A stretch of DNA of 64,000 bases. Source: Paenibacillus aestuarii. Its GTDB lineage: Bacteria; Bacillota; Bacilli; Paenibacillales; NBRC-103111. This document shows, in pieces, positions 9,659 to 27,864 of this stretch; the stretch's first letter is position 1, and the number at the start of each line of letters is the position of its first letter. The stretch is taken from positions 62,001-126,000 of the forward strand of contig NZ_JAQFVF010000089.1 in the NCBI RefSeq assembly GCF_027789125.1, in the 5' to 3' direction. The position numbers and the translations under genes are program-made. The notes beneath the pieces were generated by a model. It had not been told where the DNA came from. It did no database searches and was given only the letters and a program-made list of their open reading frames with translations.

Positions 9659-10300
9659 TTACAAACCGTAAGCAGCAGGGTTTCCTCTCCAAGAGCGGAG
9701 CAGATCCAAGTCTTCGGACTTGATCGCTCCTTTTTCCAAGGCCACTTCCAGCAGTGTCGAATAATTGGACAGCGTGTGCAGCGGCATATTCTCCGCTTCG
9801 AACGCCTGCGCAGCTTTATCCAGCTGGTAGGAGAAAATGGCGAGCACGCCAAGCGGCGTCGCGCCGGCATCTTTCACAGCCAAGGCTGCCTTAAGCGAGC
9901 TTCCCCCCGTCGAAATCAGGTCCTCGATCACGATGACCTTCTGCCCTGGCTTCACAGAACCTTCGATCAAGTTCTCTTTGCCATGGCCTTTGGCCTTATC
10001 GCGGATATAAATCATCGGCAGACCCAGCTTCTGCGCGACCCAAGCCGCATGCGGAATGCCTGCTGTCGCCGTTCCCGCGACCACTTCGGTGTCCGGGAAC
10101 TTCTCCTTGATGAGAGCGGCAAAGCCGTCCGCAATCGCTTCGCGAATCGCCGGATGCGACATCGTCAGGCGGTTATCGCAATAAATCGGCGATTTCAAGC
10201 CGGATGTCCAGGTGAAAGGCTGATGCGGGCGCAGCGCTACCGCTTCAATATCTAATAAAGATGCAGCAATCTGCTGCGCAATCGTTTCGAGTTGGCTCAT
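9659..10300 (-). CDS. pyrE: Orotate phosphoribosyltransferase
   Basis: PyrE joins orotate to PRPP to give orotidine 5'-phosphate, the fifth step of UMP synthesis. The 213-residue length is normal for Bacillales. The PRPP-binding loop is clear (VIVIEDLISTGGSS, near residues 121-134), and the N-terminal half contains the orotate-side pattern TSGLKSPIYCDNR. A catalytic-loop lysine/histidine segment (KAKGHGKEN) is present near residue 105. It is the last gene of the operon, 30 nt after pyrF, and is followed at once by a strong terminator. Confidence 0.96.
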   Translation of the reverse strand: MSQLETIAQQIAASLLDIEAVALRPHQPFTWTSGLKSPIYCDNRLTMSHPAIREAIADGFAALIKEKFPDTEVVAGTATAGIPHAAWVAQKLGLPMIYIRDKAKGHGKENLIEGSVKPGQKVIVIEDLISTGGSSLKAALAVKDAGATPLGVLAIFSYQLDKAAQAFEAENMPLHTLSNYSTLLEVALEKGAIKSEDLDLLRSWRGNPAAYGL

Positions 10301-10330
10301 CTGAAGTTGCTCCGTTCTTCCTCTTGATTT

Positions 10331-11071
10331 CTATACAATCGAATCAATAATCGATTCAATCGCCGCGCGAGGGTCAGCGGCTCCCGTGATCGGACGCCCG
10401 ATGACGACGTAGTCCGTCTTCTGGGCGAACGCTTCAGCCGGCGTCATGACGCGCGTCTGGTCCCCGACATCCGCACCTGCAGGGCGGATGCCCGGCGTGA
10501 CGGTGACGAAGGCGTCACCGCACGCCGCTTTGATCTGCGTCACTTCCAGCGGTGACGCGACAACACCCTGCAGCCCGGCGTCAAGCGCCAAGCGGGCATA
10601 GCGGATCACGGCCTGCTCGACCGAGCCTGGCAGGCCGATCTCTGCATTCAGCACCTGCTGCGAGGTGCTGGTCAGCTGCGTAACGCCGATCACGATCGGG
10701 CGTTGCGCGCCTGGCGCCATGGCCTTGTCGACACCTTCCATGGCCGCCGACATCATGTGCTTGCCGCCAGCGGCGTGCACATTGAACACATCAACCCCAA
10801 GGCGGGTAACGCTCTCCGCTCCGCCTTTGACAGTGTTCGGGATGTCGTGCATCTTGACATCCAGGAACACTTTGTAGCCGCGGTCTTTCAGACTGGCTAC
10901 GAAGCCCGGGCCTGCCGCATAGAACAGCTGCATGCCCACTTTCATATAGCACGGAATGCCTTCGAGCTGCTTGAGCAGCCCTTCAGCTTGTTCCGCATTC
11001 GCATAATCCAGGGCGACCATAATCCGCCCGGCGATATCATTTCGCGTTAACACTGCCACGTCCGTCACCAT
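10331..11071 (-). CDS. pyrF: Orotidine 5'-phosphate decarboxylase
   Basis: PyrF decarboxylates OMP to UMP, the last step of de novo pyrimidine synthesis. The 246-residue barrel shows the charged catalytic network: lysine in YMKVGMQLF (near 44) and the DVKMHDIP motif (near 71-78). The late GDQTRVMTP and VIGRPITGA segments form the phosphate-binding end. The first ATG is only 3 nt after the carB stop (TAAGGGATG), so translation is probably coupled; a GTG four codons on is an alternative start. In the classical Bacillus operon pyrK and pyrD stand between carB and pyrF, but there is no room for them here. Confidence 0.95.
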   Translation of the reverse strand: MVTDVAVLTRNDIAGRIMVALDYANAEQAEGLLKQLEGIPCYMKVGMQLFYAAGPGFVASLKDRGYKVFLDVKMHDIPNTVKGGAESVTRLGVDVFNVHAAGGKHMMSAAMEGVDKAMAPGAQRPIVIGVTQLTSTSQQVLNAEIGLPGSVEQAVIRYARLALDAGLQGVVASPLEVTQIKAACGDAFVTVTPGIRPAGADVGDQTRVMTPAEAFAQKTDYVVIGRPITGAADPRAAIESIIDSIV

Positions 11072-15595: not shown

Positions 15596-16879
15596 TTATG
15601 ACCAAACGACTTTGCCGGAGGCCATCGTCACCACGGGCCACCCTTGCAGCTTCCAACCGATGAACGGTGTATTCTTGCTGCGGGATACGATCTCTTCCTT
15701 CAGCACTTCGCGCTCTGTATCCAGATCGACAATCGTCAGATCCGCCGCGCTGCCTTCAGCCAATGTTCCGTATGGCAGTCCGAATACTTCAGCCGGCTTC
15801 TGCGTCATGCGGTTGATCAGGAAGCCGAGCGTCCACTTGCCGGTTTTTACGAATTTCGTATACAGCAGCGGGAACGCTGTCTCAAAACCGAGAATGCCGA
15901 ATGGCGCCAAGTGCATCCCCTTCTCCTTCTCTTCTTCGCTGTGCGGTGCATGATCCGTCACGATGATGTCGATGGTGCCGTCTTCCAGTGCCTCGATCAC
16001 GGCTTCCACATCGCGCGGCGTACGCAGCGGCGGGTTCATCTTCCAGTTTGCATCCATGCCTGGAATATCTTCATCCGAGAGGACGAGGTGATGCGGGCAA
16101 ACCTCTGCAGTTACTTTTATGCCGAACTGTTTCGCATGGCGGATCAGGCGAACCGATTGCTCGGTGCTGACGTGGCAGACGTGGTAGTGCACGCCAGTCG
16201 CTTCGGCCAGCAGCACATCGCGGCCGACGTGAATCGCTTCAGACTCGTTCGGGATACCCTTGAGTCCGTGCTTCTTGGCGAATGCGCCATCCGTCACCGG
16301 CGCGCCTTCAACGAGCGTGTTATCCTCGCAGTGCGCGATGATCGGCATGCCCATCGACGCGGCCAAGGCCATCGCATCTTTCATCATTTGCGCGCTTTGC
16401 ACGCCGACGCCGTCATCGGTGTAGCCGATAACGCCCGCTTCCTTCAGCGCGGCAAAATCCGTCAACTCGCGGCCCAGCTCGTTCTTCGTGATGCAGCCGT
16501 ACGGCAGCACGCGCACGACGCCTTCTGTTGCGGCTTTGTCCAATATGTAGTTGACCGTATCGACGGTGTCAATGACAGGTCTTGTATTCGGCATGCAGGC
16601 GATGGTCGTGAAGCCGCCTCTTGCTGCAGAGCGCGTGCCCGTTGCGATATTCTCTTTGTGCTCAAAGCCCGGCTCGCGCAGATGCACGTGCATATCGATG
16701 AAGCCCGGTGCCACGAGCTTGCCTGCTGCGTCAATCACTTCATGTCCGCTCGTATCTGGCAGGCTGCCGTCTACGGCATCAACAACTTGGGCAATCTTAT
16801 CATTCTCTATATAGAAGTGTTTTTTCGTTACTGTATTGTCGGCTGCAACCGTTTGTCCGTTTAAAATCCAGATTCCCAT
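15596..16879 (-). CDS. pyrC: Dihydroorotase
   Basis: PyrC closes carbamoyl aspartate to dihydroorotate, step three of UMP synthesis. The 427-residue zinc amidohydrolase has the metal-binding HVHLREP motif near residues 64-70, a further histidine region GMPIIAHCEDN near 180, and the catalytic aspartate in VTDHAPHS near 305. This is the class I dihydroorotase type usual in Bacillales. AGGGGG lies 9 nt before the ATG, and the gene starts 18 nt after pyrB. After it comes a gap of 149 bp before carA, the only large break inside the operon. Confidence 0.96.
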   Translation of the reverse strand: MGIWILNGQTVAADNTVTKKHFYIENDKIAQVVDAVDGSLPDTSGHEVIDAAGKLVAPGFIDMHVHLREPGFEHKENIATGTRSAARGGFTTIACMPNTRPVIDTVDTVNYILDKAATEGVVRVLPYGCITKNELGRELTDFAALKEAGVIGYTDDGVGVQSAQMMKDAMALAASMGMPIIAHCEDNTLVEGAPVTDGAFAKKHGLKGIPNESEAIHVGRDVLLAEATGVHYHVCHVSTEQSVRLIRHAKQFGIKVTAEVCPHHLVLSDEDIPGMDANWKMNPPLRTPRDVEAVIEALEDGTIDIIVTDHAPHSEEEKEKGMHLAPFGILGFETAFPLLYTKFVKTGKWTLGFLINRMTQKPAEVFGLPYGTLAEGSAADLTIVDLDTEREVLKEEIVSRSKNTPFIGWKLQGWPVVTMASGKVVWS

Positions 16880-25074: not shown

Positions 25075-26232
25075 CTATACCAGCTTGCTTACAAACCGTT
25101 CCACGCGGTCCAAGGCTTGCTCTAAAACTTCCTGCGAATACGCGTAAGAAATGCGCATATAGCCTTCTCCGTAAGCGGTAAAAGCATCCCCAGGCACAAC
25201 GGCCACATGCTCTTCCTGAAGCAGCCTCATGGCAAATTCCTGCGACGAGAGCCCGAAACGGGCAATCGACGGGAATAAGTAAAAGGCGCCGTTCGGTTTA
25301 TCCAACTCGAAGCCCATCGATTTCAGGCGCTCGTACACATAATCGCGGCGTGATACATAAGCTTCGCGCATCGGCAGCGCATCATCGATTCCATTCGTCA
25401 GTGCTTCCAACGCCGCGTATTGGCTGACGGAGCTGGCGCACGTGACGTTGTACTGGTGCACTTTGACCATGTGCTGGGTCAAGTAGGCTGGAGCGAATGT
25501 GAAGCCGATTCGCCATCCTGTCATCGCATGGGATTTGGATAGCCCATTGATGACAATCGTTTTCTCACGCAGCTTGCCGATTGTAGCAATCGAGCGATGC
25601 TGGTCTTCATAAACGAGTTCGCTATAGATCTCATCAGAGAGCACAAACAAGTCTTTATCCTCGAGCAAGCGGGCAAGATCCGCTAGTTCTTGCTCAGACA
25701 GCACCTGTCCTGTCGGGTTGGACGGGTAACAGAGTATGACGCAGCGCGTTTTGTCTGTCAGATGCGGCTCCAGCAGATCTGCGGTCAGCTTCAAGCCATT
25801 CTCTCTCGTGTCAACGTAGACAGGCACACCGCCGGCTAAGCGGATGAGCGGCTCATAGCCCGGATAGATCGGTGCAGGCAAAATAACTTCAGCGCCAGGC
25901 GTCAAAATCGTGCGCAGTGTAATATCCACCGCTTCACTCGCCCCCACCGTGACGATGATCTCATCAGCAGCACGATATTGTTGTCCGTATTTATGCAGAA
26001 CGAATTGCGAAGCGGCTTCACGCAGTTCCAACAGACCCGGATTCGGCGTATAAACGGTTTTATTTTGCTCCAGCGCCCGTTGTCCGGCTTCAATTATGTG
26101 CCGCGGCGTCGGAAAATCCGGCTGGCCAATCGTCAACGTCAACGCACCGGGAATCGTGCTGACAAGGTTGGAAATTTTACGGATACCTGAAATTTGAATT
26201 TCTTTCACTTGCGGATTGATCAAATGTTCCAT
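25075..26232 (-). CDS. patA: N-acetyl-LL-diaminopimelate aminotransferase (PatA)
   Basis: A 385-residue class I/II PLP aminotransferase closely resembling Bacillus PatA, which makes N-acetyl-LL-DAP from the keto product of DapH. The opening MEHLINPQVKEIQISGIRK, the substrate pattern LTIGQPDFPTP, YPSNPTG near 185, the PLP lysine in INGLSKSHAMTGWRIGF near 240 and the late MRISYA are all of that type. ATG at 26232 is preferred (GGAGG 10 nt upstream); the frame extends to 26316 without a ribosome site. With dapH and dapL opposite, all three steps particular to the acetylase pathway lie within 3.1 kb. Upstream is a repeat-rich leader. Confidence 0.94.
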   Translation of the reverse strand: MEHLINPQVKEIQISGIRKISNLVSTIPGALTLTIGQPDFPTPRHIIEAGQRALEQNKTVYTPNPGLLELREAASQFVLHKYGQQYRAADEIIVTVGASEAVDITLRTILTPGAEVILPAPIYPGYEPLIRLAGGVPVYVDTRENGLKLTADLLEPHLTDKTRCVILCYPSNPTGQVLSEQELADLARLLEDKDLFVLSDEIYSELVYEDQHRSIATIGKLREKTIVINGLSKSHAMTGWRIGFTFAPAYLTQHMVKVHQYNVTCASSVSQYAALEALTNGIDDALPMREAYVSRRDYVYERLKSMGFELDKPNGAFYLFPSIARFGLSSQEFAMRLLQEEHVAVVPGDAFTAYGEGYMRISYAYSQEVLEQALDRVERFVSKLV

Positions 26233-26312
26233 CAATTTCATTCCTCCCCCATGGATGAACGGTTCATTGACAATTCCAACTGGCTTTGCCATCCAACCGC
26301 GCAGATGAATTC

Positions 26313-26402
26313 GCAACTCGTTGACAATTCCATCTAGATTTTAAGTTGAAATTGCAACCTGTTGACAATTCCATCCAGATTTTTGAGCTGAAATTGCAAC
26401 TA
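26313..26402. repeat. Tandem 41-42 bp hairpin repeat upstream of patA
   Basis: Two near-identical units start at GCAAC (26313 and 26354) and a third begins at 26396. On the minus strand each reads GTTGCAATTTC...GGAATTGTCAAC, whose ends can pair with one bulged base. A degenerate third copy with GGAATTGTCAA continues toward patA near 26266-26280. The repeat fills the rluD-patA gap and begins at the rluD stop. Confidence 0.8.
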
Positions 26403-27362
26403 GGTTGTTCTCAACATGTGCAGCAAGTGCTCCATGTCCGCAGGCAGCGGCGCTTCAAATTGCAGCGTCTCGCCTGTTCTCGGGTGCACGAAGCCCAGTG
26501 CCGCGGCGTGAAGCGCTTGTCCGCTCGTCTCCATGGTGATCCCTTTGCCTCTCGCGCGCCCGTACATCGGGTCACCGACCAAGGGATGACCGATGAATTT
26601 CATATGCACGCGGATTTGGTGCGTCCGCCCCGTCTCCAGCTTCAACTCCACCAGCGTATTATCGGCGAACCGCTCCAGCACGACAAAATGCGTGACCGCA
26701 TGCTTACTGTTCCGCTCCGTAACGGTGTACATCTTGCGGTCCTGCGTATCTCGGCCGATCGGCGCATCAATCGTTCCGTTCTCATGCTGAATGACGCCGT
26801 GGACGACAGCGATATATTTCCGGTGCACGGTATGCGCCTTGAGCTGCTCCGCCAAGCTCGCATGTGCTTTATCATTTTTGGCAGCCATAATGAGGCCTGA
26901 AGTGTCTTTGTCGATGCGGTGTACGATACCTGGGCGCAGCTCTCCGTTGATCCCTGACAAGTCCTTGCAATGGTGCATCAAGGCATTGACCAGTGTGCCT
27001 GAATAGTGGCCAGGCGCCGGGTGCACAACGAGCCCTCTTTGCTTATTCACCACAATAACATCTGAATCCTCATAAACGACATCCAAAGGGATATCCTCTG
27101 CCGCGAGTTCAACGCTGGACGGTTCGGGAATATCGAGCGCAATCACGTCATTCACCGAAAGTTTGTAGTTCGGTTTAATGAGCTTTCCATTCACTTGCAC
27201 GTGCCCGTCTTTAACCCATTGCTGCACTTGCGTGCGGGATACTTCAATTTCAAGAGATTCTGTAATAAATTTATCGATTCGTTCACTCGCATATTGCGGA
27301 TCAACCGTCCATTCCACTGTCTCGTTAGACACGGAATCAGGAGAGGTCTGGTTTGTGTTCAT
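26400..27362 (-). CDS. RluD-family 23S rRNA pseudouridine synthase
   Basis: A 320-residue pseudouridine synthase of the RluA/RluD family (YlyB in Bacillus), which isomerises uridines in large-subunit rRNA. It has an N-terminal S4 RNA-binding domain (ASERIDKFITE onward, near 26-90) and the catalytic motif GIVHRIDKDTSGL near 145 with the active-site aspartate. ATG at 27362 with AAGGAG upstream is preferred to 27395. Its start lies inside the end of lspA (26-bp overlap), so lspA and rluD form a coupled pair, as in the classical Bacillus order. Confidence 0.93.
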   Translation of the reverse strand: MNTNQTSPDSVSNETVEWTVDPQYASERIDKFITESLEIEVSRTQVQQWVKDGHVQVNGKLIKPNYKLSVNDVIALDIPEPSSVELAAEDIPLDVVYEDSDVIVVNKQRGLVVHPAPGHYSGTLVNALMHHCKDLSGINGELRPGIVHRIDKDTSGLIMAAKNDKAHASLAEQLKAHTVHRKYIAVVHGVIQHENGTIDAPIGRDTQDRKMYTVTERNSKHAVTHFVVLERFADNTLVELKLETGRTHQIRVHMKFIGHPLVGDPMYGRARGKGITMETSGQALHAAALGFVHPRTGETLQFEAPLPADMEHLLHMLRTT

Positions 27363-27864
27363 GTGTTGCTCCTTTTTTCTCTTTTCTCCATACAAGCAGC
27401 GACTCCAGGAAGATCAGAATCACGCCGATGACAATCGCCGAATCCGCCAGGTTGAAGATCGGATAGATGTAATAGATGGATTTGCCGAAAATATCAAAAT
27501 CAAATGTCACCTGGATGAAATCCACCACTTCCCCGAACAAAGCTCGATCCAGGAAGTTACCTAACGCGCCGCCTAGCAGCAAACTAAGTGCAAAGGACAG
27601 CAGCACTTTTCCTTCGCGAATCGTCTTGCGTAAATACCAGAGAATCCCAATGACGACGATAACCGTAATAATGATGAAAAACCATCTTTGATTTTGTAAA
27701 ATGCCGAAGGCAGCCCCGCGGTTGCGGTGCGAAGTGATCACAAGGAAATCTCCTAGAACCGGACGCTCTTCCCCGATCGGAATGCGCTTAACAATCACCC
27801 ATTTAGCCGCTTGGTCCAGCAAAAATACGATTAACGCGTACAAATAATACTTTAAATACTTCAC
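27337..27864 (-). CDS. lspA: Lipoprotein signal peptidase (signal peptidase II)
   Basis: LspA is the membrane aspartic protease that removes the signal peptide from lipidated prolipoproteins. The 175-residue protein has four hydrophobic segments and the two catalytic aspartates in LGNFLDRALFG and IFNLADSAIV; DQAAKW near the start is also conserved. It is somewhat longer than average because of a basic C-terminal tail (WRKEKKGATHEHK). AAGGAGGAT precedes the ATG. Likely substrates in this window include the ABC adaptor and the DUF4349 lipoprotein. Confidence 0.96.
   Translation of the reverse strand: MKYLKYYLYALIVFLLDQAAKWVIVKRIPIGEERPVLGDFLVITSHRNRGAAFGILQNQRWFFIIITVIVVIGILWYLRKTIREGKVLLSFALSLLLGGALGNFLDRALFGEVVDFIQVTFDFDIFGKSIYYIYPIFNLADSAIVIGVILIFLESLLVWRKEKKGATHEHKPDLS

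Follow-up and report, generated by a model that had tools for sequence, protein, structure and literature searches.

What fills the gap between a pseudouridine synthase gene and patA in Paenibacillus aestuarii, where an earlier note, made from the DNA letters alone, had described a tandem hairpin repeat? The stretch that we analysed (64,000 nucleotides of contig NZ_JAQFVF010000089.1; hereafter the window, and its source the window genome) carries minus-strand units of the form GTTGCAATTTC...GGAATTGTCAAC in the gap between a gene for an RluA-family pseudouridine synthase (26400..27395, minus strand) and patA (25075..26232, minus strand, start ATG at 26232-26230). The upstream gene had been called rluD; the family holds, with the product scoring above the RluA-subfamily cut-off, but the RluD equivalog cut-off was not reached (267 vs 351 bits), and rluD is used below as a locus label. 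The downstream gene had been named correctly, its product passing as aminotransferase A.

The tandem repeat proved to be real, with Tandem Repeats Finder placing the array as the top-scoring of 23 rows in the window (score 137; runner-up 56) and with two clean units that fold. Hairpin unit 1 (26361..26400, minus strand) is 40 bp long and hairpin unit 2 (26320..26358, minus strand) 39 bp, the separators between the window units being AG and GA; the two units were earlier given as 41-42 bp, and their start-to-start spacing is 42 bp. Only one of the supposed further degenerate copies was recovered, unit 3 (26266..26317, minus strand; 52 bp), at 23.4 bits vs 55.4-58.8 bits for the four model-building copies and with a fold at shuffle level (z -0.5). 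As RNA, each clean unit forms the expected stem, in which a single T is bulged (unit 1 at -12.3 kcal/mol and z -2.9, unit 2 at -12.6 kcal/mol and z -5.0), and the fold of the whole 170-nt stretch (z -4.5) was matched by 0 of 200 shuffles. Upstream of its start, the patA frame meets no stop across the degenerate unit 3 as far back as a TTG at 26316 (window 26316-26233), so that on paper a longer PatA could be made.

The array starts at the rluD stop, as had been observed, where the G of TAG (26402-26400) doubles as the first base of unit 1. It also reaches toward the patA ribosome site in the manner described, ending before CGTTCATCC (26261-26253), a stretch common to congeners, and before the Shine-Dalgarno-like GGGGGAGG (26243..26250, minus strand), which lies outside the insert and in whose place congeners carry a similar GGGAGAGG/GGAGAGG-type motif. 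Relative to the congener G017 (gap 30 nt), the inserted stretch covers 26262..26399 (minus strand; net 137 nt). An intrinsic terminator was rejected, as no GC-rich stem with a T run was found in 26150-26500, and so was an Rfam structured RNA or riboswitch, for which the best score over 26100-26500 was 17.6 bits vs the 60 needed.

Copies elsewhere in the genome and in other collections

The window genome (7,084,080 bases, or 7.08 Mb, in 92 contigs) was searched for further copies by BLAST, which found one at C20 (E 7e-6) and one at C30 (E 0.30), and with a covariance model trained on four copies. The model gave five clean copies at 37.4-58.8 bits, the training copies at E 5.7e-10 to 1.2e-9 and an untrained copy at C61:150068-150106 (37.4 bits, E 4.8e-5). 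The model searches scored 110 and 150 first-look candidates, and with 150 of 2,948 candidates scored the family comprises five clean copies, spread over four loci that each lie on a contig of their own, together with one degenerate copy; the three loci beyond the window array hold one copy each, on other contigs of the same genome. Within 485 kb of this genome (~7%), the best model match apart from the known copies reached only E 3.7.

The C20 copy lies in the fapR-plsX gap with FapR and PlsX as its neighbours, the C30 copy between genes for an AraC-type response regulator and an extracellular solute-binding protein, and the C61 copy just after cheX, with CheX and a short-chain dehydrogenase on its two sides. 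The genes beside the four loci have no common function or pathway, and the element is in gene-sense orientation at three of the four and antisense at C20. Clean copies are 38-41 bp long, and in all five the inverted arms (15 and 16 nt) are conserved as GTTGCAATTTCATCT ... AGATGGAATTGTCAAC with one bulged T and a spacing of 7 to 9 nt between them; the arms are near-identical and the loops unlike from locus to locus.

A second and far more abundant repeat was seen in the ~7% of the genome sampled, having a 19-bp core, CACTATCCC-N-TT-NN-CTCAG, that occurs in both orientations. Its tandem arrays lie outside the window (L167:12796-13980; L171:9404-9680, 9802-10350 and 15778-16010; L174:3983-4490; L180:11430-11650) and keep the core while their period varies by array (~169, 51, 88, 36 and 162 bp).

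BLAST of 59 related genomes gave matches in none at E<=0.01, and the exact arm pattern was found in none of 29 congeners. The covariance model gave weak matches in five relatives at E 0.014-0.54 per genome, of which the best (E 0.014) falls inside a LysR-family gene, that in G025 belongs to a different palindrome array and not to this family, and the others were taken as chance after their sequences were inspected. Of the loci taken from relatives, 41 were scanned (29 window-locus, 5 fapR, 3 cheX and 4 AraC). The G025 array (L019:1443-1601) is itself an intergenic tandem array of three different palindromes (CAATTCCATTGGAAA...) with a period of 51-52, similar in style to the window array and of another sequence family. 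Over a collection of 84,980 species, from which the window genome itself and its very close kin may have been left out, the arm pattern gave four matches, one in a Clostridium and three in MAGs from other phyla; beyond the letters fixed by the pattern these have nothing in common with the family, and their folds reach -2.9 to -4.8 kcal/mol (family copies here, -12.3 to -16 kcal/mol), and we estimate that about one such match is expected by chance. A phage or viral origin was rejected, with no viral-contig match to the exact pattern and no phage match at E<=1, and a plasmid origin likewise, the single weak match being a 34-nt stretch of a Nostoc plasmid (E 0.5). Among the matches listed from open-licence PMC papers, no description of the element was found, and those listed for the two arm sequences in the same literature were two unrelated papers. 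Within the genomes sampled, the element is restricted to this species. The earlier statement that it belongs to no recognised family was a fair one, given the Rfam, phage, viral-contig and plasmid results. The earlier note had also held that a repeat occurring nowhere else and absent from close relatives would speak against it; the absence from relatives is borne out, and the repeat does occur elsewhere in its own genome.

Corresponding places in congeners

In every one of the 28 congeners that keep this gene order (G020, the 29th, does not share it here), the rluD-patA gap measures 30-70 nt, vs 167 nt in the window genome, and none of the 28 has the element upstream of patA, the two longer gaps among them (70 nt in G021 and 52 nt in G022) having other sequence inside. 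The gap of G021 (L042), the closest congener, is ~40 nt above the usual length and includes a small AAGTTTTCCAAAAGGAAACCT palindrome that folds no better than shuffles (z -0.6).

At fapR-plsX, the distance from a conserved fapR point to the plsX start is 69 nt in the window genome, 40 nt above the commonest congener length (29 nt in 23 of 29 congeners, 26 in four, 32 in one and 108 in G029). In 28 of the 29 congeners the FapR frame extends over the first 17 nt of plsX, whereas in the window genome it meets its stop within the hairpin, leaving 41 nt before plsX. Here the insert provides fapR with its stop codon and parts two otherwise overlapping reading frames. In G029 (L100), an unrelated insert of ~80 nt lies at nearly the same place (fold z -2.2).

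The C30 locus could be compared in 23 of 25 matching congeners, two with only 40%-identity paralogues being left out together with the paralogue rows; four more congeners, including the closest, G021, gave no match to the regulator at threshold. G017 has GTAACTAGAGATGAGGAGG with the same flanks and no insert (net difference 44 bp), and it alone is informative for an empty site, because the gaps of the other 22 congeners compared hold other sequence, mostly of similar length. The distance from the cheX stop to the terminator is 98 nt at C61 vs 56 and 60 nt in the closest congeners (G021 and G017) and 37-77 nt across all 29, and the sequence directly after the cheX stop differs between the window genome and the congeners. 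At the cheX and AraC loci, the length of the gap by itself does not tell this insert from other sequence, and at cheX it is no proof of insertion.

Empty sites, the mark by which a MITE insertion is judged, were found at the window locus in all 28 congeners of the same gene order, in G017 at C30 and in 28 of 29 congeners at fapR-plsX, where the 29th carries another insert; we read the copies as insertions because congeners are without the element at the corresponding places. Of the three suggestions made earlier, an interspersed non-autonomous element fits best, with three further loci and congeners that have no insert. A riboregulatory leader for patA is not supported, given the absence from all 28 syntenic congeners, the unrelated neighbours in both orientations and the lack of a matching Rfam family. 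A transcript stabiliser, the third suggestion, is conceivable.

Fold, insertion ends and rival explanations

Over the five copies, 73 of the 75 pair cells (97.3%) are standard, the two exceptions being pair 13 in w1 and w2. The complement strand folds worse because eight cells are G-U on the element strand, as in the C61 copy (RNA fold -13.5 kcal/mol in sense vs -2.8 in complement). This copy has four arm substitutions, every one pairing-compatible as sense-strand RNA, while as DNA its hairpin is weak (-2.1 kcal/mol); simulations put the chance of its keeping all 15 pairs at 0.6%, 3.0% or 12%, by the share of transitions, and we take its pairing as a weak hint of RNA-level constraint on one strand. 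The C20 complement folds at -11.8 kcal/mol, and that copy, if transcribed at all with fapR-plsX, would be read as the complement. A check of structure with covariation had been proposed; the structural half stands in the folding of the clean units, and covariation was absent, with 0 of 15 pairs changed on both sides and shuffles reaching the same pairing values.

In the C30 copy the flanks read TA-element-A-TA, and in the C20 copy, in element orientation and shifted by one base, TG-element-T-TG, a reading that presupposes a one-base deletion ahead of the insertion, since the net gain is 40, not 41. The C61 and window copies have no flanking 2-bp repeat, and a two-base target duplication at C30 and C20 is suggestive only. 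The 5' flanks in element orientation are CCTA, TCTG, ACTA and CTTA; a CT dinucleotide lies within 5 nt upstream of the element at all four loci, and a GTAG or CGTC tag is absent from the element ends at all four. Y1 transposase, the transposase family profiled, gave no match to PF01797 at E<=0.01 in the assembly, in a search whose control was positive in 6 of 14 genomes. Nor did any longer element bounded by these ends emerge from a scan of the assembly with the exact end pattern, which misses the diverged C61 copy and does not reach diverged ends or short or missing contigs; of its 10 matches, six belong to known copies and four are solitary, with no hairpin.

We consider it probable that the array derives from a species-restricted, non-autonomous mobile hairpin of MITE/REP type (38-41 bp) that was inserted at this locus. 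On this reading a single copy inserted at the TAG stop and was then duplicated in tandem, one duplicate decaying afterwards. The mover would have been a transposase acting in trans, since lost, missing from the assembly or unrecognised, and the hairpins, once inserted, may now be passive structured spacers in the transcript. Against this reading stand the failure to find a mover (neither PF01797 nor a longer element with both ends), the want of a clean target duplication at all loci, the small number of clean copies (five) and the locus-specific loops, which are unexpected from simple recent copy-paste; with near-identical arms beside them, neither fresh copy-paste nor neutral decay alone explains these loops. 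Conserved arms and variable loops would also be expected of a cis-acting RNA hairpin kept for its function, stabilising or processing the mRNA between genes, with selection on the arms and the loop ignored. The sense orientation at three of four loci and the C61 copy, whose substitutions all keep sense RNA pairs where the DNA fold is weak, agree with such a hairpin, but its pairs show no compensatory change and are no more numerous than in shuffles, chance retention in C61 reaches 12% under one mutation model, pair 13 is broken in two copies, C20 is antisense, the adjoining genes have no common function and the same operons lack the hairpin in congeners, all of which make this explanation unlikely.

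Movement as single-stranded DNA by a formerly resident Y1 tyrosine transposase, as for a REP/RAYT element, would account for several features that resemble REPs as these are described in PMC3733652 and PMC8266576, namely size, an imperfect palindrome with a bulge, the asymmetry of the two strands, clustering in tandem and a position beside stop codons. The CT at all four loci agrees only weakly with it, CT being the TnpA-REP cleavage site in the accounts of the same two papers. REP membership fails on tag, copy number and resident transposase, with five copies, not hundreds, and we judge this origin improbable. A protein-binding palindrome, whether an operator or a chromosome-organisation site, could explain near-identical inverted arms at four loci and is very unlikely: the arm spacing varies (and with it the element length), for which an operator was dropped, the arms hold a strand-specific bulge, no pathway is common to the loci and the unit was inserted as a whole, congeners being without it. 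Chance similarity or an assembly artefact, in favour of which speak only the small family size and a genome in 92 contigs, is scarcely credible beside four loci on four contigs, the E values of the trained and untrained copies and the poor next-best match in the 485 kb. An integron attC site was dropped, since the ends of attC are arranged in the opposite way to those of the present element. A bolder form of the mobile hairpin is conceivable, although we hold it doubtful: a minimal unit of ~40 bp that spread without a recognisable Y1 transposase, conserved in its two arms alone and with a different loop at every locus, as though selection or the copying mechanism acted on the folded RNA of one strand, and that can rewire operons through stop codons and broken fapR-plsX translational coupling.

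Comparison with known repeat families

The best-described short palindromic repeats are those of gamma-proteobacteria and streptococci. The present family provides four datable insertions with empty places in congeners, and it has a visible effect at fapR-plsX, where fapR is ended early and the 17-nt overlap with plsX is removed. Were its mover found, the element would rank with the smallest mobile units so far reported; failing that, the family is an ordinary one of small repeats.

Like the REPs described in PMC3733652, PMC8266576 and PMC2817692, the element falls within 20-50 nt in size and is a bulged imperfect palindrome and extragenic, and, as those accounts report of REPs, such units can cluster, form species-restricted families and have loops able to vary. 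Unlike REP/RAYT systems as these papers present them, it has no GTAG/CGTC tag, only five clean copies and no Y1 transposase found; more than 100 copies per genome are given as usual for REPs in PMC2817692, and 20-100 copies or fewer for other REP families in PMC3733652. It is like the pneumococcal RUP, BOX and SPRITE elements, in the description of PMC3049150, in being a small interspersed Bacillota repeat with a folded transcript. According to the same source, RUP is ~107 bp long with ends like those of IS630-Spn1, whereas the present element is without a known IS partner, and SPRITE, which is present in 30 copies, carries a terminator-like U tract, whereas the present element is without one. 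With bacterial MITEs, as reviewed in PMC10969869, it shares shortness, terminal inverted arms (here 15 and 16 nt, in a short non-coding element), a transcript hairpin, intergenic position and empty sites, and it differs from the MITEs covered there in that the whole element is 38-41 bp, that the exact end pattern revealed no partner element sharing its ends and that target duplication is suggestive only; the review describes QMITE1 pieces down to 39 bp with ends better conserved than the remainder. We class the element as a small family, new within a known kind, the MITE-like intergenic hairpin repeats.
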